Assembly: GCA_014379965.1 (NCBI GenBank)
Contig: JACMKU010000211.1
Coordinates: forward strand, 1-64,000
Direction of reading: 5' to 3'
From: Chitinophagaceae bacterium
Lineage (GTDB): Bacteria; Bacteroidota; Bacteroidia; Chitinophagales; Chitinophagaceae
Length of the DNA: 64,000 nt
The position numbers and the translations under genes were made by a program. Below, piece by piece: positions 14,675-24,673 of the stretch; the stretch's first letter is position 1, and every line of letters begins with the position of its first letter. The notes below the pieces were generated by a model, which was not told the DNA's origin, did not search any database, and saw only the letters and a program-made list of their open reading frames with translations.

Positions 14675-17600
14675 TTACATATTTCTTCGATATTGACCGC
14701 CTACCTCATACAATGCGTGAGTGATCTGTCCTAGGGAACAATACCGTGTAGTCTCCATCAGCTCTTCAAAAAGATTGCCATTCTTTATAGCCACTTCTTG
14801 CAGGCGCTTTAGCATCTCTTTCGATTTGCCCTCGTTGCGTTGCTGGAATAAGCGAAGATTCTGAATCTGTCGCTCCTTTTCTTCGGTTGTACTCCTGATG
14901 ACTTCGGAAGGTATAATAGTTGGTGAACCTTTTTTATTAAGAAATGTGTTCACGCCGATCAAGGGTAATTCGCCCGTGTGTTTCTGGTGTTCATAGAAAA
15001 GGCTTTCTTCCTGTATCTTATTTCGCTGATACATTCTCTCCATCGCACCGAGTACGCCGCCGCGGTCGGAGATACGATCGAATTCGGTGAGTACCGCCTC
15101 TTCTACTAGGTCGGTTAATTCTTCAATGGCGAAACTGCCCTGGTTGATGTTCTCCGTCTTCGCAGTGCCAAGTTCACGGTTTATGATCAATTGGATTGCC
15201 ATAGCTCTTCTAACACTTTCTTCTGTTGGCGTGGTGATCGCTTCATCATACGCGTTTGTATGAAGGGAATTGCAATTGTCATAGATCGCATAGAGTGCCT
15301 GTAGCGTAGTACGGATATCGTTAAAGTCAATTTCCTGTGCGTGTAGACTCCTGCCGGAAGTCTGGATGTGATACTTCAACATCTGGCTGCGTTTGTTGGC
15401 CTTGTACTTATATCGCATCGCCTTTGCCCAGATGCGTCGCGCCACACGGCCAATCACACTGTATTCGGGGTCCATTCCGTTACTAAAGAAGAAAGAAAGA
15501 TTAGGCGCGAACTCATCGATGTTCATGCCGCGACTCAGGTAATATTCAACATAGGTAAACCCATTAGATAAAGTAAATGCTAGTTGCGTAATTGGGTTCG
15601 CGCCAGCCTCGGCAATATGATAGCCGCTGATGGACACACTATAGAAGTTACGCACCTTGTTTTCTATAAAGTATTCCTGCACATCACCCATCAGTTTCAA
15701 GGCAAACTCGGTTGAGAATATGCAAGTGTTCTGTGCCTGGTCTTCCTTAAGGATATCAGCCTGCACGGTGCCTCTTACCTGTGATAAAGCTTCTGATTTT
15801 ACCTTCCCATACTCCTCGCCTGGAAGGATATCGGCACCTGATAATCCAAGCAGTCTAAGTCCTAGTCCACTGTTGCCCGCGGGAAGCTCACCCTCCAATA
15901 CTTTTTCAAGAATTCCTGTATTTGTTTTGGCTTGGGTTATATCTCCCGCATAGGTCGGCCTTGCCACGCCTCCGTACTTTTTCTCAAACGCCTGACTTAC
16001 CAGGTCCCATTTTCCATTAGCCTCAAGCCATTTCTCACACTGCTGATCGATGGCGGCATTCATGAAGAAAGCCAATAGCATCGGGGCCGGACCATTGATC
16101 GTCATGCTGACGGATGTCCGAGGATCACAAAGATCGAAGCCGCTATATAGTTTCTTCGCATCATCCACCGTGGCGATGCTCACTCCGCTGTTGCCAACTT
16201 TGCCGTATATATCAGGACGATGATCGGGATCTTCTCCATATAGTGTCACGCTATCGAATGCGGTCGACAATCGTTTAGCCGGTTGGTCCACGGATACATA
16301 ATGAAATCTCCTGTTGGTTCTCTCGGGGCCGCCCTCGCCTGCAAACATTCGCGTTGGATCTTCGCCTTCACGTTTCAAAGGAAACACACCTGCAGTAAAA
16401 GGGAAATGACCGGGCACGTTCTCTTGCGATTCCCACGTCAGAATGTCGCCCCAGTCTTTATATTTCGGCAGAACCACCTTTGGAATACGTGTTCCGCTCA
16501 GGCTCTTTGTGAACATCGGCTGCCTGATGACCTTCTCACGCACCGTATACTCATAGAAATCCTTGCCGTATTCTTTGAGTTTATCGTCCCATCCCAGGAG
16601 CAGCTTGCGACTTACAGGGGAAAGTTGCTCCATGAGCGTATCGATATGCTGCTGGACCGTTTCAATTGACTCGGCACTCGCCGTCGAAGGTTTTTCGCCT
16701 TCTGGCGCCTTCGGCAATTCTTTGAAGATTTCGAGTGCACCATGCAGTCGGTATATTTTCGACGCAATGGAGGCCTGTTCCTTTACCTGGCTGTCGTAGC
16801 TCCTGTTGTTCTCCGTGATCTCTGACAGGTAACGGACACGACTCGGCGGAATGATCGCAGGAGAAACTGAAGCCGACTCGGGAAACTGATATTCGCCGAA
16901 GCGACACTTCGTCTTCTTCTCGATCTTTTCGACCAGCGACTGAAACAATCGATTCACTCCTTCGTCGTTGAACTTACTCGCCATAGTACCGATAATCGGT
17001 AGCTCATCGTCTTTGGCGGAAAACATCTGGTGATTGCGCTTATACTGTTTACGTACATCGGCGAGGGCATCCAAAGCTCCGGCCTTGTCAAACTTATTTA
17101 TACAGACAATGTCTGCATAATCGAGCATGTTTATCTTTTCCAATTGCGATGCCGCCCCATATTCAGGAGTCATCACATACATGCTGACATCGCAGTGATC
17201 GAGAATGGAAGCATCACTCTGCCCCACTCCCGCCGATTCGAGGATTATGAAATCATAGCCAGCCTGTATGCAAATATCTATGGCCTCCTGGACGTGTGAA
17301 CTGAGTGCAGTATTATCATCTCGGGTTGCGAGACTCCGCATATAGGCACGGGGATGCGAGATGGAATTCATACGGATCCTGTCTCCAAGCAGCGCTCCAC
17401 CTGTCTTCTTCTTGGAGGGATCTACCGATACAACAGCAATAGTCTTTTCCTTAAAGTTTTGCAGGAAGCGCCTAACGATCTCATCGGTAACACTGCTCTT
17501 GCCAGCACCACCAGTGCCCGTGATACCAAGAACGGGCGGCTTGTTGGTAACCGCAACTGCCTTTTCGCCGTTGAGTGGATTGCCGTTCTCGGCATTAGTT

Positions 17601-18103
17601 ATTTGCCGGGCGATCATCCTGATATCTTTCGCTTCCTCCAGCTTTAGCTCCATTTTATATTCTGCCTTGCCGTTAAGCTGTACATCGCAAAAACTGATCA
17701 ACTCTTCTATCATTCCTTCCAGTCCAAGTTTCCGCCCGTCGTCAGGGGAATATATCCTCGTGATACCATACTTATGCAACTCTTCAATTTCATCTGGAAG
17801 AATGGTGCCGCCGCCACCGCCGAATATTTTGATATGCCCGCATCCATTCTCATCCAGCAAGTCTTTCATGTATTTGAAAAACTCAACATGTCCTCCCTGA
17901 TAGGAGGTAATGGCTATGCCTTGAACGTCCTCCTCGATGGCCGTCTCAACGATCTCCTTCACGGATCGGTTGTGACCAAGATGGATGATCTCCGCACCTT
18001 TACCCTGCATGATCCTTCGCATGATATTGATGGCAGCGTCGTGGCCGTCGAACAAACTGGCGGCAGTAACGATACGGACTTTATTTACTGGCGTATAACC
18101 CAT
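14675..18103 (-). CDS. icmF: Fused isobutyryl-CoA mutase with G-protein chaperone
   Basis: IcmF interconverts isobutyryl-CoA and n-butyryl-CoA (some members also act on pivalyl- or isovaleryl-CoA) with adenosylcobalamin. At 1142 residues it has the typical fused architecture. First comes the B12-binding domain (about 1-140) with the lower-ligand His21 in SLFDGHDAA and the GGGGG loop near 95-99. Next is a MeaI-type GTPase (about 185-420) with P-loop GTGGAGKSS at 196-204 and base-recognition NKFD. The mutase TIM barrel forms the C-terminal half, with [18 protein letters not shown] and [14 protein letters not shown]. It has its own promoter and is followed by the DUF421 gene. Confidence 0.95.
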
Positions 18104-18343: not shown

Positions 18344-19279
18344 ATGCGGAAAGCCTGCCTGATCATAGTTTTCAATCATCGTTACGATAAGAACATACCC
18401 GTGCTCCGTAAGATGTATTCCGGTCGGTTTAGTCATATCTTTTTCCTCGTGCCTTTTTATGATGGAGCCGATCCCGACGTGATCCCGGTTTATGAGAGCT
18501 CGTACTATTTCCAGTCCTTCTTCGCCCAGGGTTTTCACCGGTTCTTTCGTCCAGACTTTACCCATTATGTCTTTGCGGGAGACGATTGTCTACTCAATCC
18601 TGCAATCGACGAAAACAACCTGCTCGACGTGACAGGGATTCCTGATGGTGCCGACTTCATTCCTGAATTCATTGAACTGCATTCGCTGAAGGACGGTGGA
18701 TGGTGGCATACCAAGAAGGCAATAGATTTCTTTCATAACCGGGGCGGTGCCGAAGTGCAGCGCGAATTACCCTCGCGAGAAGAAGCGCTTCGCCGATTCA
18801 ATGCCCACGGGCTCACGATCAAGCCACTGACGCGCGAGAATATTTTCGGGAATAAGAAAATCTCCTTCCTTAATCCTTTGCAATCCTGGATGTATAAACA
18901 ATTTTTCCTCCAGGTAAAATGGAAGAAGTATCGCAAGGATGGACTTATCGAGCTGCCATACCCGGTAGCGGGATCGTATTCTGATATGTTCGTTGTGACA
19001 AAGGATAGCATTTCGGACTTCTGCCGTTATTGCGGCATCCTGGCTGCCGTCGGTTTGTTCGTAGAGCTGGCGATTCCCACGGCTCTTGTATTGTCGTCGA
19101 AAAGAATAGTCCAGGAAAAAGACCTCAGACTGAAAGGCCTGGCGGTGTGGACGCCAGCGGAGGTTGAAACGATAGAGAATAAATTCAATCGTTCCCTCAA
19201 AGACCTCCTCGCAAAATTCCCGGAAGGGCAGTTGTATTATCATCCAGTTAAACTCTCGAAATGGACCAACGACCTATGA
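18344..19279 (+). CDS. Hypothetical protein, possible glycosyltransferase-like fold
   Basis: A 311-residue protein I cannot assign to a family. It has no signal peptide. The opening RKACLIIVFNHRYDKNIPVL (a beta strand and loop), followed by FLVPFYDG and YVFAGDDCLLNP, is laid out like a GT-A glycosyltransferase with an acidic metal motif near residues 78-80. Its stop codon overlaps the start of the STELLO-like gene (ATGA at 19276), so the two are translationally coupled and probably act together on surface or exported glycans. That role is inferred from the neighbour only. Confidence 0.75.
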   Translation: MRKACLIIVFNHRYDKNIPVLRKMYSGRFSHIFFLVPFYDGADPDVIPVYESSYYFQSFFAQGFHRFFRPDFTHYVFAGDDCLLNPAIDENNLLDVTGIPDGADFIPEFIELHSLKDGGWWHTKKAIDFFHNRGGAEVQRELPSREEALRRFNAHGLTIKPLTRENIFGNKKISFLNPLQSWMYKQFFLQVKWKKYRKDGLIELPYPVAGSYSDMFVVTKDSISDFCRYCGILAAVGLFVELAIPTALVLSSKRIVQEKDLRLKGLAVWTPAEVETIENKFNRSLKDLLAKFPEGQLYYHPVKLSKWTNDL

Positions 19280-20250
19280 AAAAATTTATCGTTATCACCA
19301 GCATATTCGAGCCTACGGAAGCTATCGCGGCCTTTGCCGACTTGTCCGATCATCATCTGGTGGTGGTGGGCGATAAGAAAACGCCGGCCGGCTGGAACTA
19401 TAAGAATTGTACTTATCTCGACATTCCCAGGCAGGTGGAACTCTCCGCTTCCCTCGCCAATTCCATTCCCTTCAATCACTATGGCAGGAAGATGCTTGGC
19501 TATGTATATGCAATGAACGAGGGAGCCGATGTCATCATCGATACTGATGACGATAACATTCCTTACCCTGGATGGGAGTTTCCCGGATTTGTTGGAGACT
19601 ATCGTAGTTCTCTTCCGGATCTTGGATGGGTAAACATCTACCATCATTTCTCTGATAAGCATATCTGGCCGCGCGGCCTTCCACTTAGAAATATCAACGA
19701 CAGCCGTGAAAAGTTAAAATGGGAGAAAAGTACATCGACGCAAAAAGTCGGCATCTGGCAGGGTTTGGCAGACGTTGATCCAGATGTGGATGCCATCTAC
19801 CGGCTCACAGATAACACACCGTGTACTTTCAACGATAGCGAGCCTGTGGTGTTGAAGAAAGGAACGGTGTGCCCATTCAATTCTCAAAATACGGCCATCC
19901 AGCGAGCATTGTTTCCTCTCCTCTTTCTTCCTTCGTTTGTCACATTTAGGTTTACTGATATCCTGAGGGGTATCATCGCCCAGCCCATACTTTGGCAACA
20001 AGGCTATTGCCTGGGTTTCACCAAGGCGACGGTAGTGCAGAAAAGGAACGAACACGACTATTTCAAGGACTTTGAAAGCGAAGTTCCGATGTATCTACAT
20101 ACCGAGAAATCACTTACGGCAGTGACTGCGACTGTCAGGGAGGGAAGCGTGACTGACAATCTGTGGAATGCTTACGAGGCGCTCCTGAAGTTGGGTGTAG
20201 TGGAAGACAGGGAAATGACTGTACTCAGGGAATGGCTGAAAGTATTTTGA
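19276..20250 (+). CDS. STELLO-like (DUF288) glycosyltransferase family protein
   Basis: A 324-residue protein resembling the STELLO/DUF288 glycosyltransferase family, first known from plant Golgi proteins. The start at 19276 is chosen because it overlaps the previous stop; an in-frame ATG at 19261 would lengthen it by five residues. The opening KKFIVITSIFEPTEAI, the strand HHLVVVGDKKTP, and the acidic metal motif DTDDDN at 89-94 followed by PYPGWEF are the family's hallmarks. The DSEPVVLKKGTVCPFNSQNT stretch also fits. No membrane segment is seen, so it should be cytoplasmic. The acceptor is unknown. Confidence 0.75.
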   Translation: MKKFIVITSIFEPTEAIAAFADLSDHHLVVVGDKKTPAGWNYKNCTYLDIPRQVELSASLANSIPFNHYGRKMLGYVYAMNEGADVIIDTDDDNIPYPGWEFPGFVGDYRSSLPDLGWVNIYHHFSDKHIWPRGLPLRNINDSREKLKWEKSTSTQKVGIWQGLADVDPDVDAIYRLTDNTPCTFNDSEPVVLKKGTVCPFNSQNTAIQRALFPLLFLPSFVTFRFTDILRGIIAQPILWQQGYCLGFTKATVVQKRNEHDYFKDFESEVPMYLHTEKSLTAVTATVREGSVTDNLWNAYEALLKLGVVEDREMTVLREWLKVF

Positions 20251-20262: not shown

Positions 20263-21765
20263 ATGCAGGCATTGATTGATTCTGTAAGAGATCTATATAC
20301 CCATTGGAAAGGCATCGAACCTCTCTCGGTAGACGTACTCCCCATCTCCGGGAGTGAACGTCGGTACTTCAGAATACACGAGAAAGACCACTCGCTCATA
20401 GCTACGTATGGCGCGAACATTAAGGAGAATGAATCATTCATTTATTTCGCGGAAAGTTTTCATAAGAAAAAACTGTCAGTGCCTGCGATATACGCTGTCA
20501 GTGATGACAGGATGTTTTATATACAGGAAGACTTCGGCGATGTCTCGCTATTGACGCGTCTCGAGTCGGAAGGCTTTGCGCAACCGGTGTATGAATTGTT
20601 TCGTAAAAGTCTCGAAGCCCTAGCTCTTCTTCAGGTAAAAGGCGACAAAGGCCTGGACTATAAACGCTGTCTTACCAACAAAGAGTTTGGTAAAGAAGCC
20701 ATCATGGCCGACCTGCTTTATTTCAAATACTATTTCCTCGATGCTCTGCGGAAACCTTATGATAAGCAGAAACTTTTGAAAGACTTCGAGGCGCTGAGCA
20801 ACTACCTGACGCATACGGAATATAAGTATTTCATGTTTCGCGACTTTCAAAGCCGTAACATCTTCGTCAAGGAAGATGACTCTGTACATTTCATCGATTT
20901 CCAGGGCGGAATGAAGGGTGCGCCCCAATATGATGTGGCGAGTTTGCTATGGCAGGCAAGAGCCAATCTGCCCGATGTATGGAAAGATCAACTGCTGGTA
21001 GATTACATGAATGCCTTTGAGCGACTGATCAACGGCCCGATGGACCAGATGGTCTTCAGAAGCCAGTACAATGGTTATGTACTCATTCGCCTGTTGCAGG
21101 TCCTGGGTGCTTATGGCTTTCGCGGCTTATTCGAACGCAAGGCACAGTTCCTTACTGCTATTCCTTTAGGGCTTCGTAATCTCAAGGATTTTTTTCGTAA
21201 CCAGAGTCTTGGCATTTCCGTACCCGAATTCAAGAAGATGCTCGACCTCTGTGTCTCTGACGAGGTCATCGAACTTTTCACACCTACTCAGGCATCTGAA
21301 GACACACCGCTCATAGTCAAGATCAATAGTTTTTCATACCGTAAAGGTTGCCCTCCGGATGAGAGCACGAATGGCGGTGGTTTTGTGTTCGATTGTCGTG
21401 GAATATTGAATCCAGGCCGTATTGAAGAATATAAAACGCAGCATGGACGTGACAAGGGAGTGAAGGATTACCTGGAGCAGCAAACGAAGATGCTCAATTA
21501 TCTCAACAGCGTATTCGATATCGTTGACATGACAGTTGAGGAATACATTAAAAGAGGATTCGAAAGCCTGATGGTAAACTTCGGTTGTACTGGTGGGCAA
21601 CATCGGAGCGTATATGCGGCGGATGCATTGGCAAGACACCTACGAAATAAATTCAAGGTGAAGATCGAATTGAATCACCGTGTACAGGATGAAAAGAACT
21701 GGCAAAATCCCATCGAGTCTAAACCGAGCCAGGTAACGGAGAATAAGGAGCATACCGGAAGTTGA
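20263..21765 (+). CDS. AmgK-like sugar kinase fused to RapZ C-terminal domain
   Basis: A 500-residue two-domain protein. Residues 1-310 form an aminoglycoside-phosphotransferase-type kinase like AmgK, which phosphorylates MurNAc/GlcNAc at the anomeric carbon in cell-wall recycling. The catalytic loop reads FRDFQSRN (192-199), with Asp194 and Asn199, and the metal Asp212 is in IDFQGG. Residues about 350-485 match the C-terminal domain of RapZ, with GGGFVFDCRGILNPG (371-385) and GCTGGQHRSV (441-450); in enterobacteria this domain binds glucosamine 6-phosphate. RapZ's own N-terminal P-loop domain is absent. A MurU-like gene follows about 100 bases downstream, supporting a recycling role. Confidence 0.85.
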   Translation: MQALIDSVRDLYTHWKGIEPLSVDVLPISGSERRYFRIHEKDHSLIATYGANIKENESFIYFAESFHKKKLSVPAIYAVSDDRMFYIQEDFGDVSLLTRLESEGFAQPVYELFRKSLEALALLQVKGDKGLDYKRCLTNKEFGKEAIMADLLYFKYYFLDALRKPYDKQKLLKDFEALSNYLTHTEYKYFMFRDFQSRNIFVKEDDSVHFIDFQGGMKGAPQYDVASLLWQARANLPDVWKDQLLVDYMNAFERLINGPMDQMVFRSQYNGYVLIRLLQVLGAYGFRGLFERKAQFLTAIPLGLRNLKDFFRNQSLGISVPEFKKMLDLCVSDEVIELFTPTQASEDTPLIVKINSFSYRKGCPPDESTNGGGFVFDCRGILNPGRIEEYKTQHGRDKGVKDYLEQQTKMLNYLNSVFDIVDMTVEEYIKRGFESLMVNFGCTGGQHRSVYAADALARHLRNKFKVKIELNHRVQDEKNWQNPIESKPSQVTENKEHTGS

Positions 21766-21865
21766 GTTGGTATGACGTGAAGAAATTATCTGCAGATACA
21801 ATCAGACAGCTAATCTAAATTTCAGACGGGTAAAAAATGATGCCCGGTCGTTCTAAATCCGAATA

Positions 21866-22615
21866 ATGAGCAAATCAAAAAGTGGTGCACCAGGTGTAGG
21901 AAATGCGATGATCTTTTCCGCTGGGCTGGGCACTCGCTTCAAACCGTGGACGGATAAACATCCCAAGGCACTGGCCCTGGTAAACGGTAAATCACTCCTT
22001 CAACGCAATTTGGAATATCTCCAGCAATTTGGAATTTCGAACGTGATTGTAAATGTTCACCATTTTGCGGAGCAGGTAGTTGAAGCCATAAAGAATAACG
22101 ATGGTTGGGGAAGTAACGTGATCATCAGTGATGAGACAGACAAGGTATTGGAAACCGGTGGTGGATTACTAAAAGCTAAGGATCTCTTCGTACCGGACCA
22201 ACGCTTCATCACCTGTAACGTGGACATTCTTACTGATCTCGATATAGGTGAGCTGATCCATTTTCATGAGACGCGTCGACCATTGATCTCTTTCGGAGTT
22301 ACGGATAGGAAGACATCGAGGTATTTCCTATTCGACGACCACGATAGGTTGTGCGGATGGCGCAACACCCGTACCGGTGAAGAGAGAATAGAAGTGCCGG
22401 GTGATGTGCTCATCGAAAAGGCATATAGTTGTGTTGTCGTTTTCGAGTATGATGTATTCCGCTTAATGCCGATGACTGGGAAATTCTCGCTAACTGATGT
22501 GTACCTGGACCTGGCGAAAGAACATCTTATTCTTGGATATGATCACAGCGGGGACCAGCTTGTAGATGTAGGTAAACCGGAAAGCGTTGATATCGCGGAA
22601 AAAATCTTCCCTTAA
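21866..22615 (+). CDS. MurU-like sugar-1-phosphate nucleotidyltransferase
   Basis: A 249-residue NTP_transferase that should couple a sugar 1-phosphate to UTP or another NTP. The signature GLGTRFKPWTDKHPKA at 20-35 is intact, with the catalytic Arg24 and Lys34. VLETGGGLL and FITCNVDILTDLD supply substrate and metal contacts. Length and sequence fit MurU (MurNAc-1-P uridylyltransferase), and the AmgK-like gene upstream points the same way. ManC-like mannose-1-phosphate use is the main alternative. A rho-independent terminator follows. Confidence 0.85.
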   Translation: MSKSKSGAPGVGNAMIFSAGLGTRFKPWTDKHPKALALVNGKSLLQRNLEYLQQFGISNVIVNVHHFAEQVVEAIKNNDGWGSNVIISDETDKVLETGGGLLKAKDLFVPDQRFITCNVDILTDLDIGELIHFHETRRPLISFGVTDRKTSRYFLFDDHDRLCGWRNTRTGEERIEVPGDVLIEKAYSCVVVFEYDVFRLMPMTGKFSLTDVYLDLAKEHLILGYDHSGDQLVDVGKPESVDIAEKIFP

Positions 22616-22686: not shown

Positions 22687-22720
22687 CGTTAAATTGTGAG
22701 CTCGTTTATAACCCTTGCAT

Positions 22721-24673
22721 ATGAAGATATCCCGTCTAGGTCTTTTTTGTCTATTGATTACTGTGTCTGCTTCGTCGCAATCCGTGTATAATGCCAAGGA
22801 GGCTTTCTTCCCACAATTCTATCCTTACGCTGGCAATGAATATCGAAGCGCAAGTGGTGAGCCGGGTCCAAAGTATTGGCAAAATCGTGCAGACTACAAA
22901 ATCACCTGTACAATCGACACCACCTTGCATTCTATATCTGGTGTAGTTGAATTAAATTATACTAACAACAGTCCGGACAACCTGAAGTTTCTCTGGTTGC
23001 AACTCGATCAGAACATTTATAGGAAAGACTCGCGCGGTTCGTCAACGACGACGGAGACAGGGGGGCGTTATGCTAACGAGGGATATACCCAAGGCTATGT
23101 AATCAGGTCGGTTACCGTCACGAATAGTGGTAAGAACTATAAACCCAGACACATTACTTCCGACACACGCATGCAAGTGTGGTTGGAGGACGCGTTGAAG
23201 TCATCTGGAGGAAGTGTAAAGATTGCCATCGAGTTCTCCTTTTCTGTTCCAGAATATGGTACGGATAGGATGGGAAGGCTTAATACGCAGAATGGCTGGG
23301 TGTACACCATCGCGCAATGGTTTCCAAGAGTATGCGTATATGATGACCTCCAGGGATGGAACGTGTTACCTTATATAGGTGCGGGTGAATTCTATCTCGA
23401 ATTTGGTGACATTGAGTATTCCGTTACTGCGCCGGCAAACATGATCATTGTCGGTTCAGGTGAATTACAGAATCCCTCTGAGTCTTTCACACCAGAACAA
23501 TACAAGCGATACAAGGAGGCAATGAACAGTGATAAAACAGTCACGATAAGAAGCGAGCGACAAGTGAATGATAAGAAAGTTGTTACAAAAAAGGGGATGT
23601 CGACCTGGAACTTCACCATGAAGAATACGAGGGATGTAGCATGGGCCGCCTCGAGTGGCTTCATCGTCGATGGCGCCCGCATCAATTTATCCAGTGGTAA
23701 GAAGGCGCTAGCGCTTAGCGCATATCCCATCGAAAGCACAAAGGAGCGGAAAGGAAATGACTGGCGCCGCTCCACCGAGATGGTGAAGGCATCAATCGAG
23801 CATTATTCGGAGAAATGGTATGAATATCCCTACCCTTCGGCGGTAAATGTGGCTGGCATTGTTGGGGGAATGGAATACCCAGGAATTATCTTTTGTTACT
23901 ACAAGGCTACTGGCAGCGGGTTGTGGAGTGTGACGGATCACGAGCTAGGACACACCTGGTTTCCAATGATCGTCGGTAGCAATGAACGGAAATATGCGTG
24001 GATGGATGAAGGATTCAATGAATTCATCAATGGCCTGTCTACCGAGGCATACAATAAAGGAGAGTTCCACGCTAAGACGAACCTTACGTCGACATATACT
24101 GTCAGGGGAATATTCGGAGAGCACGTGGATGGATTATTCAACGTACCGGATGCTGTGCAGGAAGGTAGTCTTGCCACCACCGCATATTACAAACCAGCGA
24201 TGATGCTCGCGTTACTTCGCGAATCTGTTCTCGGACCAGAGCGTTTCGATGCCGCATTTAAAGAATATATCCATCGCTGGGCCTTCAAGCACCCCACTCC
24301 CTGGGATTTCTTTCACACAATGGAGAACGTAGCTGGCGAAGACCTCAACTGGTTCTGGCGGGGATGGGTGATGAACAACTGGAAGATCGACCAGGCTGTG
24401 AAAGGAGTAGTCTATGTGAAGGATGTACCTGCGAATGGCGCAGTGATCACGGTAGAAAACATGGAGAAGATGCCGATGCCGGTAACCGTCCTCGTCAAGG
24501 AAACTAACGGTAAAGAACATCGAATAAACCTGCCGGTAGAAATCTGGCAGCGAGGCTCCGAGTGGACTTTCGGCGTACCAACGACGAGTGAGATAAAGGA
24601 AGTAATACTTGATCCGGATAATAGGTTGCCGGATTGGAATAGGGAGAATAATTTATTGAGAAAAGGCTTTTGA
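22721..24673 (+). CDS. Secreted M1-family metallopeptidase
   Basis: A 650-residue gluzincin of the aminopeptidase N type. The ATG at 22721 is preferred to a TTG two codons earlier. Residues 1-20 form a signal peptide (MKISRLGLFCLLITVSASSQ). The N-terminal beta domain is followed by GGMEYPGIIF, the exopeptidase-type GxMEN-like strand, and the zinc site HELGH at 407-411 with Glu430 in WMDEGFNEF. It is shorter than E. coli PepN, lacking most of the C-terminal helical domain, as usual for the Bacteroidota periplasmic members. It converges on the metallophosphoesterase gene over a perfect hairpin. Confidence 0.92.
   Translation: MKISRLGLFCLLITVSASSQSVYNAKEAFFPQFYPYAGNEYRSASGEPGPKYWQNRADYKITCTIDTTLHSISGVVELNYTNNSPDNLKFLWLQLDQNIYRKDSRGSSTTTETGGRYANEGYTQGYVIRSVTVTNSGKNYKPRHITSDTRMQVWLEDALKSSGGSVKIAIEFSFSVPEYGTDRMGRLNTQNGWVYTIAQWFPRVCVYDDLQGWNVLPYIGAGEFYLEFGDIEYSVTAPANMIIVGSGELQNPSESFTPEQYKRYKEAMNSDKTVTIRSERQVNDKKVVTKKGMSTWNFTMKNTRDVAWAASSGFIVDGARINLSSGKKALALSAYPIESTKERKGNDWRRSTEMVKASIEHYSEKWYEYPYPSAVNVAGIVGGMEYPGIIFCYYKATGSGLWSVTDHELGHTWFPMIVGSNERKYAWMDEGFNEFINGLSTEAYNKGEFHAKTNLTSTYTVRGIFGEHVDGLFNVPDAVQEGSLATTAYYKPAMMLALLRESVLGPERFDAAFKEYIHRWAFKHPTPWDFFHTMENVAGEDLNWFWRGWVMNNWKIDQAVKGVVYVKDVPANGAVITVENMEKMPMPVTVLVKETNGKEHRINLPVEIWQRGSEWTFGVPTTSEIKEVILDPDNRLPDWNRENNLLRKGF

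Follow-up and report, generated by a model that had tools for sequence, protein, structure and literature searches.

A RapZ C-terminal domain joined to an AmgK-like kinase, with a neighbouring MurU-like nucleotidyltransferase: a candidate module for MurNAc 6-phosphate in Bacteroidota

Gene Content of the Locus

The window analysed here is a stretch of 64,000 nucleotides from a member of the Chitinophagaceae (positions 1 to 64,000 of contig JACMKU010000211.1, assembly GCA_014379965.1). It contains two adjacent genes, which code for an AmgK-type kinase fused to the C-terminal domain of RapZ (RapZ_C) and for a MurU-like nucleotidyltransferase, as had been proposed by a first-pass annotation made from the sequence alone. 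The fusion gene (P0001, 20263..21765, plus strand, as are all features of the pair) begins with ATG and encodes 500 amino acids (aa), in which Pfam, NCBIfam and an AlphaFold model agree on two domains. The kinase part (aa 1-341, 20263..21285) has an APH/choline-kinase-like fold with 3csv as closest solved structure, and matches the APH family of Pfam at aa 32-249 (PF01636, 2.5e-11). The RapZ C-terminal domain (aa 349-478, 21307..21696) matches PF22740 at aa 351-474 (7.7e-33; score 113.7 bits, cut-off 27). A sequence search of the PDB gave the corresponding results, namely E. coli RapZ (5o5s, 3.9e-12) for the C-terminal part and 3csv (1.1e-8) for the kinase part.

The second open reading frame (ORF) of the pair (21866..22615) follows after 100 bp and encodes a protein of 249 aa, which Pfam assigns to the nucleotidyltransferases. 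Its top NCBIfam matches are two MurU models (NF045761, at 2.3e-30, is the best; scores of the two 106.1 of 250 and 100.3 of 370 bits), and its PDB matches are the nucleotidyl transferase 4y7t (5.1e-13) and MurU (8hhd, 8.8e-13). The top specific NCBIfam kinase models for the fusion are those of AmgK, both below their cut-offs (NF045759, 2.1e-13, 50.1 of 550 bits; NF045698, 36.6 of 500 bits). Because these scores lie far under the equivalog cut-offs, "-like" is the right wording for both assignments.

The AlphaFold model of the whole fusion, calculated with a 56-row alignment, reached a predicted local distance difference test score (pLDDT) of 90.6 and a predicted template modelling score of 0.75. 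Its residues 3-341 superimpose on 3csv (Z 28.9, root mean square deviation [rmsd] 3.1 over 311 residues) and its residues 346-478 on E. coli RapZ (Z 19.6, rmsd 1.6, 127 residues), while the kinase part dominates the results of a fold search with the complete model. Modelled alone, RapZ_C reached a pLDDT of 92.2 and a Z of 19.8 to 5o5s (rmsd 1.6, 123 residues). In the fusion, the APH fold takes the place of the N-terminal P-loop domain of RapZ, as judged from Pfam and the model, and the RapZ model PRK05416 matches only with positions 148-276 of 278, which represent the C-terminal half (99.5 of 244 bits). The source genome (G000, 4.73 Mb; G, C, L and f are used here as handles for genomes, contigs, loci and families) has a single RapZ_C domain, that of the fusion, and full-length RapZ was not detected in this 90.4% complete assembly, in line with the earlier view that the P-loop half is missing.

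Distribution and Ancestry of the Module

The occurrence of the domain was followed in 296 genomes taken evenly across the phylum Bacteroidota (140 genera, source genome included); the search profiles of the analysis (A1-A4) comprised 13-15 chosen members each. RapZ_C is present in 36 of these genomes, scattered over 29 of the 140 genera with gut Bacteroides included. In 27 of the 296, the source among them, it is part of a kinase-RapZ_C fusion of 475-513 aa, whereas in nine of the 36 it is encoded by a stand-alone gene of 133-139 aa. Seven of the nine split cases (L043, L060-L065) show three adjacent genes in the order kinase, RapZ_C and murU; in the other two (G180, G271) the kinase and murU genes are placed elsewhere in the genome. 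RapZ_C is thus fused to the kinase or encoded beside it in 34 of 36 genomes. A profile of the clade kinase (≥250 bits) retrieved 37 of the 296 genomes, which are the 36 with RapZ_C plus a single further one, G009; conversely, RapZ_C occurs in 36 of these 37 kinase genomes and in none of the remaining sample. The MurU profile has a match in all 36 genomes, those with dispersed genes included (lowest score 187.6 bits), as well as in G009. In 28 of the 36 loci, the kinase/RapZ_C gene is immediately followed by a MurU-like gene on the same strand; the remaining eight genomes carry such a gene at another place. Kinase, RapZ_C and MurU-like enzyme form a three-part module, and clustering of the neighbours of the 36 loci, which took in all adjacent murU genes but one (27 of 28), revealed no further broadly conserved neighbour. 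As both fused and split forms occur in one lineage and the gene order is kept in seven of nine split cases, this is classic evidence that the parts function jointly.

Beyond the sample, at least 588 relatives of the fusion were found among GTDB contigs, and all 80 of those analysed are fusions. By record title, these 80 come from Chitinophagaceae, Saprospiraceae, Prolixibacteraceae, Bacteroides and Muribaculum, plus single metagenome-assembled genomes of Calditrichia and Delongbacteria; the closest among the matches listed is from Chitinophagaceae, with 76% identity. An assembly artefact as the origin of the fusion is ruled out by the recurrence of the same architecture in the sampled genomes and the GTDB relatives, and the fusion is a common one. 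The one annotated fusion that we saw bears an RNase adapter name: a RefSeq record of Bacteroides finegoldii lists it as "RNase adapter RapZ" and has the adjacent gene as "nucleotidyltransferase family protein."

A tree of 131 RapZ_C rows places all 117 kinase-linked domains, fused and split, in one group with 100/100 support, separate from 11 canonical RapZ proteins and three actinobacterial stand-alone domains. The split rows nest at two places inside this group. The tree is based on few columns, and the canonical and actinobacterial rows form long branches, so that only the 100/100 branch and the nesting of the split rows are used here. The single kinase genome devoid of RapZ_C, G009 (C44, L183), has an adjoining murU gene, lacks matches to AnmK and BadF kinases and has no strong match to MurQ; it is a natural test case for the role of the domain.

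Catalytic Loop of the Kinase

The catalytic loop FRDFQSRN (aa 192-199, 20836..20859) carries Phe at the position of the His of the HxD motif and retains Asp194 and Asn199. The first-pass annotation had pointed out the missing His, and the same trait was found throughout the clade, with Phe, Tyr or Ile at this position in 34 of 34 aligned kinases and the general pattern (F/Y/I)RDF(Q/N). Since the RapZ_C-free kinase of G009 also reads FRDFQ, the altered loop is not tied to the RapZ_C domain. Kinases of family f17, which comprises 64 of the sampled genomes, kept HRD(F/Y)H in eight of eight cases compared. Two alignments were made, A5 with the source fusion and 55 of 80 named loci (56 rows; L101, L103, L128, L131 and L147 trimmed ahead of their stop codons) and A6 with the source and 41 of these loci. 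All 56 aligned fusions share Asp194, Asn199 and Asp212; in kinases of this kind, the first two residues are catalytic and the third binds the metal. Together with the Pfam and 3csv matches, the presence of the catalytic Asp and Asn and the metal-binding Asp identifies an APH-type kinase. The possibility of a dead kinase was rejected in view of the invariance of these residues and the clade-wide loss of the His, and we expect the kinase half to be active.

Anion-Binding Pocket of the RapZ Domain

In E. coli RapZ, a pocket for sulfate and malonate is formed by His190, Thr248, Gly249, His252 and Arg253 (PMC5737377), with Cys247 close by (PMC9841335). We compared these positions in an alignment of 116 kinase-linked domains (the source, 35 sampled stretches and the 80 named loci, near relatives kept). 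Equivalents of Asp182, Cys247, Thr248, Gly249 and His252 are present in all 116, that of Arg253 in 115, and His276 is also retained. Four of the five pocket residues are therefore kept and His190 is lost: the position is occupied by Gly in 115 of 116 domains (Gly385 in the window, 21415..21417) and by Tyr in one, compared to His in eight and Tyr in three of 11 canonical RapZ proteins. In addition, the kinase-linked domains aligned with canonical RapZ carry a five-residue insertion relative to it ahead of the VFDCR strand (ESTNG, aa 367-371, 21361..21375, in the source), which runs into a conserved Gly-Gly-Gly stretch. Because the residues of the CX5R loop are almost invariant while position 190 is Gly and the insertion is present, the anion site is conserved and a neighbouring part of the pocket altered.

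These two changes also weaken a simple transfer of function from E. coli. The first-pass annotation had suggested that the domain senses glucosamine 6-phosphate (GlcN6P), as known for the enterobacterial protein, and could thereby control the kinase directly. Allosteric control of the kinase by RapZ_C is possible, but the specific role of a GlcN6P sensor seems weakly founded given the replacement of His190 and the insertion, and the gene content described below fits another ligand better. The further suggestion that the fusion works without an RNA partner agrees with our data: no Rfam match was found in the 64-kb window (GlmY/GlmZ were not searched genome-wide), and the RNA-binding residues of the E. 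coli protein (K270/K281/R282/K283) are not conserved across the 116 domains.

The loop Cys442-Thr-Gly-Gly-Gln-His-Arg448-Ser449 (21586..21609), which corresponds to C247-S254 of E. coli RapZ, belongs to the invariant stretches of RapZ_C in both fused and split forms, and the Cys247 equivalent also occurs in 14 of 14 RapZ or RapZ_C proteins outside the clade. With its sequence C-T-G-G-x-H-R-S, the loop conforms to the CX5R(S) motif that marks cysteine phosphatases. In the RapZ_C model, the Cys ends a strand (88-95) and the Arg opens a helix (101-117), as judged by secondary structure alone, and the same placement of Cys and Arg is seen in cysteine phosphatases. For E. coli RapZ, the changes C247A and C247S abolish activity, and the authors propose a catalytic role of the -SH group; moreover, GlcN6P in the crystal of the C-terminal domain (CTD) is called "likely a chemically transformed product," and H190A abolishes cleavage of GlmZ, in an assay that reports on RNA function and not on GlcN6P binding (PMC9841335). 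A literature search for RapZ together with C247 yielded nothing beyond this paper.

Supply and Removal of MurNAc-6-P

AnmK produces N-acetylmuramic acid 6-phosphate (MurNAc-6-P; PMC5371407). We recorded AnmK by PF03702 and MurQ, which consumes MurNAc-6-P, by TIGR00274 at E < 1e-50. AnmK is found in 208 of the 296 sampled genomes and in 26 of the 36 with the module (weakly in G216, 1.2e-10), and the strict prediction that RapZ_C occurs only with AnmK failed in the other 10. The search for BadF-family (MurK-type) kinases was begun after this failure, and its controls were run later still. A BadF-family kinase of about 300 aa (E < 1e-20) is present in nine of the 10 AnmK-less module genomes. That of G031, the only one compared to the PDB, has a MurNAc/GlcNAc kinase as top match (4.6e-40), and the following gene codes for an AmpG-type transporter in all three cases examined of the nine (G031, G116, G294). 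Altogether, 35 of 36 module genomes have a kinase expected to make MurNAc-6-P, either AnmK or of the MurK type.

MurQ is present in 17 of the 36 module genomes and absent from 19, and all of the latter have AnmK (12: G017, six of family f4, G005, G087, G128, G180, G271) or a MurK-type kinase (seven: G019, G031, G116, G124, G188, G140, G294). Among RapZ_C-free genomes, MurQ accompanies AnmK in 182 of 182 cases, and the AnmK-lacking ones outside f17 and G009 contain MurQ plus a MurK-type kinase in 13 of 13. The members of f17, which are presumably Chlorobiaceae, have an AmgK-type kinase without RapZ_C in 63 of 64 genomes (94-146 bits; G056 shows no match to the kinase profile) and MurU in 62 of 64 (E ≤ 1e-30); by the criteria given, neither AnmK nor MurQ was found in any of the 64, nor in G009. 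This pattern is as expected if RapZ_C is needed when MurNAc-6-P must enter the AmgK route, and MurNAc-6-P agrees better with the gene content than GlcN6P does. The number of independent lineages behind the pattern is small.

Control searches for BadF kinases in 70 genomes (E ≤ 1e-15) gave matches in 13 of 13 AnmK-lacking RapZ_C-free genomes outside f17 and G009, seven of seven other members of f16/f34, eight of 12 further members of the phylum from classes other than that of the source, none of 12 from that class and four of 26 from f17. Because of these matches in genomes lacking RapZ_C, the MurK-type kinase by itself is not specific for the module.

Search for MupP

In Pseudomonas, the 6-phosphate of MurNAc-6-P is removed by the HAD phosphatase MupP, which is unrelated to RapZ. 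We searched 71 genomes with MupP of P. aeruginosa (named so in RefSeq; 455 bits with NF009696 against a cut-off of 359). Nothing was found at E ≤ 0.001 in four of the 36 module genomes, and the other 32 have some HAD match, the best with 32% identity and 99 bits (G087). Judged by eye, such matches are not enriched over the 35 other genomes. Two genomes of family f4, G095 and G265, which have AnmK, an AmgK-type kinase and MurU and lack MurQ, show no MupP match at E ≤ 0.001. These results weaken the case for a MupP-like enzyme in the module genomes but do not exclude it, because HAD phosphatases are numerous and variable.

Predicted Function of the RapZ Domain

The module appears to represent the anabolic route of MurNAc salvage as it occurs in Bacteroidota. 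The existence of such a route in the phylum is already known, since AmgK and MurU have been discussed for Tannerella forsythia (PMC7670621), while the RapZ_C partner was not met in print: our literature search, which left subscription papers mostly outside, found no paper combining AmgK and RapZ. From family membership and gene pairing, the N-terminal kinase would phosphorylate MurNAc at C1 and the MurU-like enzyme would convert MurNAc-1-P to UDP-MurNAc. For RapZ_C, we favour a role in handling MurNAc-6-P, more likely as a cysteine phosphatase than as a sensor, with both roles predicted. The CX5R loop would hold the phosphate of MurNAc-6-P and Cys442, acting as nucleophile, would most likely remove it, so that MurNAc-6-P from AnmK or MurK could be passed on as MurNAc to the fused kinase. 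The substrate, the chemistry and the channeling of this step are those we infer, and to the assignment as MurNAc-6-P phosphatase domain we would give somewhat less than an even chance.

Should RapZ_C lack hydrolytic activity, its most likely alternative role would be to sense MurNAc-6-P and so gate the kinase. More generally, the domain may be a non-catalytic allosteric sensor of a phospho-amino-sugar (MurNAc-6-P or GlcN6P, the latter being the case proposed by the first-pass annotation) or of a product such as UDP-MurNAc, which tunes the kinase to match salvage to supply; we regard this as plausible, if on balance doubtful. It is in accord with the binding of GlcN6P by the isolated CTD of E. 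coli RapZ with a dissociation constant of 10 nM (PMC7073468), with the retained phosphate-binding residues and with the tie of the domain to the kinase, which also holds in the 17 genomes where MurQ gives another outlet. However, the Gly at position 190 and the insertion make GlcN6P specificity doubtful, an invariant Cys of catalytic type would not be needed by a sensor, and the removal of the 6-phosphate would stay unexplained in genomes without MurQ and an evident MupP.

A wider form of the phosphatase proposal seems unlikely to us, although not far-fetched, namely that RapZ C-terminal domains generally, including that of E. coli RapZ, are cysteine-dependent sugar-phosphate phosphatases, the Bacteroidota fusion being the missing MurNAc-6-P phosphatase of the phylum. 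If it were true, a single protein spending one ATP would relocate the MurNAc phosphate from C6 to C1, and the RNA control exerted by enterobacterial RapZ would have arisen later from an ancient metabolic enzyme.

It is improbable that the kinase acts on another sugar, such as GlcNAc or a different hexosamine, and that the end product of the module is a UDP-sugar destined for envelope glycans instead of UDP-MurNAc. The low scores with the AmgK and MurU models, the activity of AmgK with GlcNAc implied by its family name and the weak glycosyltransferase match of the ORF immediately before the fusion gene would suit such a role, but no specific model matches the two genes better than those of AmgK and MurU, their pairing is strict, the presence of the module tracks the content of AnmK, MurK-type kinases and MurQ, and conservation of the neighbourhood does not extend to the upstream genes. 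Just as improbable is a mere oligomerisation or stability module with a relic pocket, since the dimerisation of the isolated RapZ-CTD, for which Asp182 matters (PMC7073468) and which would agree with Asp182 in 116 of 116 domains, is set against a CX5R loop that is invariant in fused and split forms, unlike a relic, and against the retention of RapZ_C as a separate protein of 133-139 aa in the split forms.

Several observations weigh against RapZ_C as the MurNAc-6-P phosphatase. Regarding gene content, G230 has RapZ_C, no AnmK and only a weak BadF match (8.4e-9); 16 of the 35 module genomes with a source of MurNAc-6-P, including the source genome itself, also have MurQ as an outlet; and MurK-type kinases are common in f16/f34 with or without RapZ_C. 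BadF kinases were tested in 30 of the 64 f17 genomes, G056 among them, and gave strong matches in four (211-225 bits). Score and length were the sole grounds for assigning these four to the dehydratase-activator type and disregarding them; if they were MurK, they would be counterexamples. The RapZ_C-free genomes with kinase and MurU belong to two lineages, f17 and G009, which makes the contrast phylogenetically thin. Other HAD phosphatases could be the agents of dephosphorylation, and four f17 genomes account for four of the five best MupP matches (86-108 bits, 29-35% identity) despite having no AnmK or MurQ by our searches.

Regarding the domain itself, no likeness of RapZ_C to phosphatases rose above noise in structural comparisons (DUSP1 with Z 5.3, below the threshold of 8, rmsd 3.2, 87 residues; DUSP rows of a Foldseek search at E ≥ 1.5), and a profile search with RapZ_C gave no match to cysteine phosphatases. 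The changes of C247 in E. coli RapZ also affect RNA binding (PMC9841335), which is an alternative explanation of the mutant phenotype. A deletion of murK in T. forsythia diverts MurNAc to the cell wall (PMC7670621), an effect that would hardly matter with fast dephosphorylation of MurNAc-6-P, leaving aside the fusion status of the AmgK of this species. Finally, we found no published activity test of the domain from the module.

Should RapZ_C indeed act on MurNAc-6-P, this would supply a step missing from cell-wall recycling in a major phylum, offer a direct test of the enigmatic cysteine of RapZ, which is the subject of an open remark in PMC9841335, and show a path from a metabolic domain to an RNA regulator.

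Neighboring Genes and Other RapZ_C Records

The ORF preceding the fusion gene (19261-20250) weakly matches the STELLO glycosyltransferases of Pfam (PF03385, 1.4e-7, aa 230-283), whereas the ORF before it (18344-19279) matches no Pfam family. On the opposite strand, an ORF of 1142 aa (14675-18103) has relatives near the module in three other loci; inspecting its translation by eye, we take it to be a methylmalonyl-CoA-mutase-type protein fused with a G-protein part. Downstream of the module lies a gene for an M1-family peptidase (22715-24673, plus strand, PF01433, 1e-14) with TTG as its listed start, relatives of which occur in five of the 36 module loci, the window included.

Stand-alone RapZ C-terminal domains are also encoded on actinobacterial linear plasmids of Streptomyces and Planobispora (L169:3001-3483, L170:2989-3384, L181). 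The genes are annotated as "RNase adapter RapZ," yet with 396-543 bp they leave no room for the P-loop half, and all three products retain the Cys and Arg of the CX5R motif. Matches to RapZ_C were furthermore obtained in three Bacteroidales records labelled as plasmids, L167 (NZ_OY725912.1), L182 (OY725990.1) and L168 (NC_022111.1), the first of which contains the full fusion with a MurU-like neighbour; these records are possibly chromosome pieces or second replicons.

Comparison With Known Systems

The AmgK-MurU recycling pathway of Pseudomonas and Caulobacter resembles the module most closely, sharing the kinase with an adjacent MurU-like gene (28 of 36 loci), the company of AnmK (26 of 36) and the closest curated models. 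The module differs from it by the RapZ_C domain, attached to the kinase or encoded by a separate gene, by the loop (F/Y/I)RDF(Q/N) instead of the HRD(F/Y)H kept by the f17 kinases, by scores far from the equivalog cut-offs and by the lack of an evident MupP in its genomes. In addition, proteobacteria are reported to use either the MurQ route or the AmgK route (PMC5371407), whereas MurQ coexists with the module in 17 of 36 genomes.

With E. coli RapZ, the RNase adapter and GlcN6P sensor, the domain shares the fold of the CTD and the residues Asp182, Cys247, Thr248, Gly249, His252, Arg253 and His276, but it occurs in a fusion without P-loop domain and RNA-binding tail, has exchanged His190 for Gly, carries the five-residue insertion and forms its own group in the tree. 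As published for RapZ, it shows a weak structural likeness to the sugar-binding subdomain of phosphofructokinase (1pfk, Z 6.7, rmsd 3.3, 88 residues). It has the CX5R(S) motif at a strand-loop-helix junction in common with the CX5R cysteine phosphatases, in contrast to the absence of any significant fold or sequence match to them.

MupP as a HAD enzyme employs Asp chemistry, as opposed to the Cys proposed for RapZ_C, and the two proteins are unrelated, RapZ_C being bound to the kinase by fusion or gene neighbourhood in 34 of 36 genomes. MupP is stimulated by Mg2+ (PMC5371407). What RapZ_C would share with MupP is the proposed reaction and its position in the pathway, after AnmK and before AmgK.

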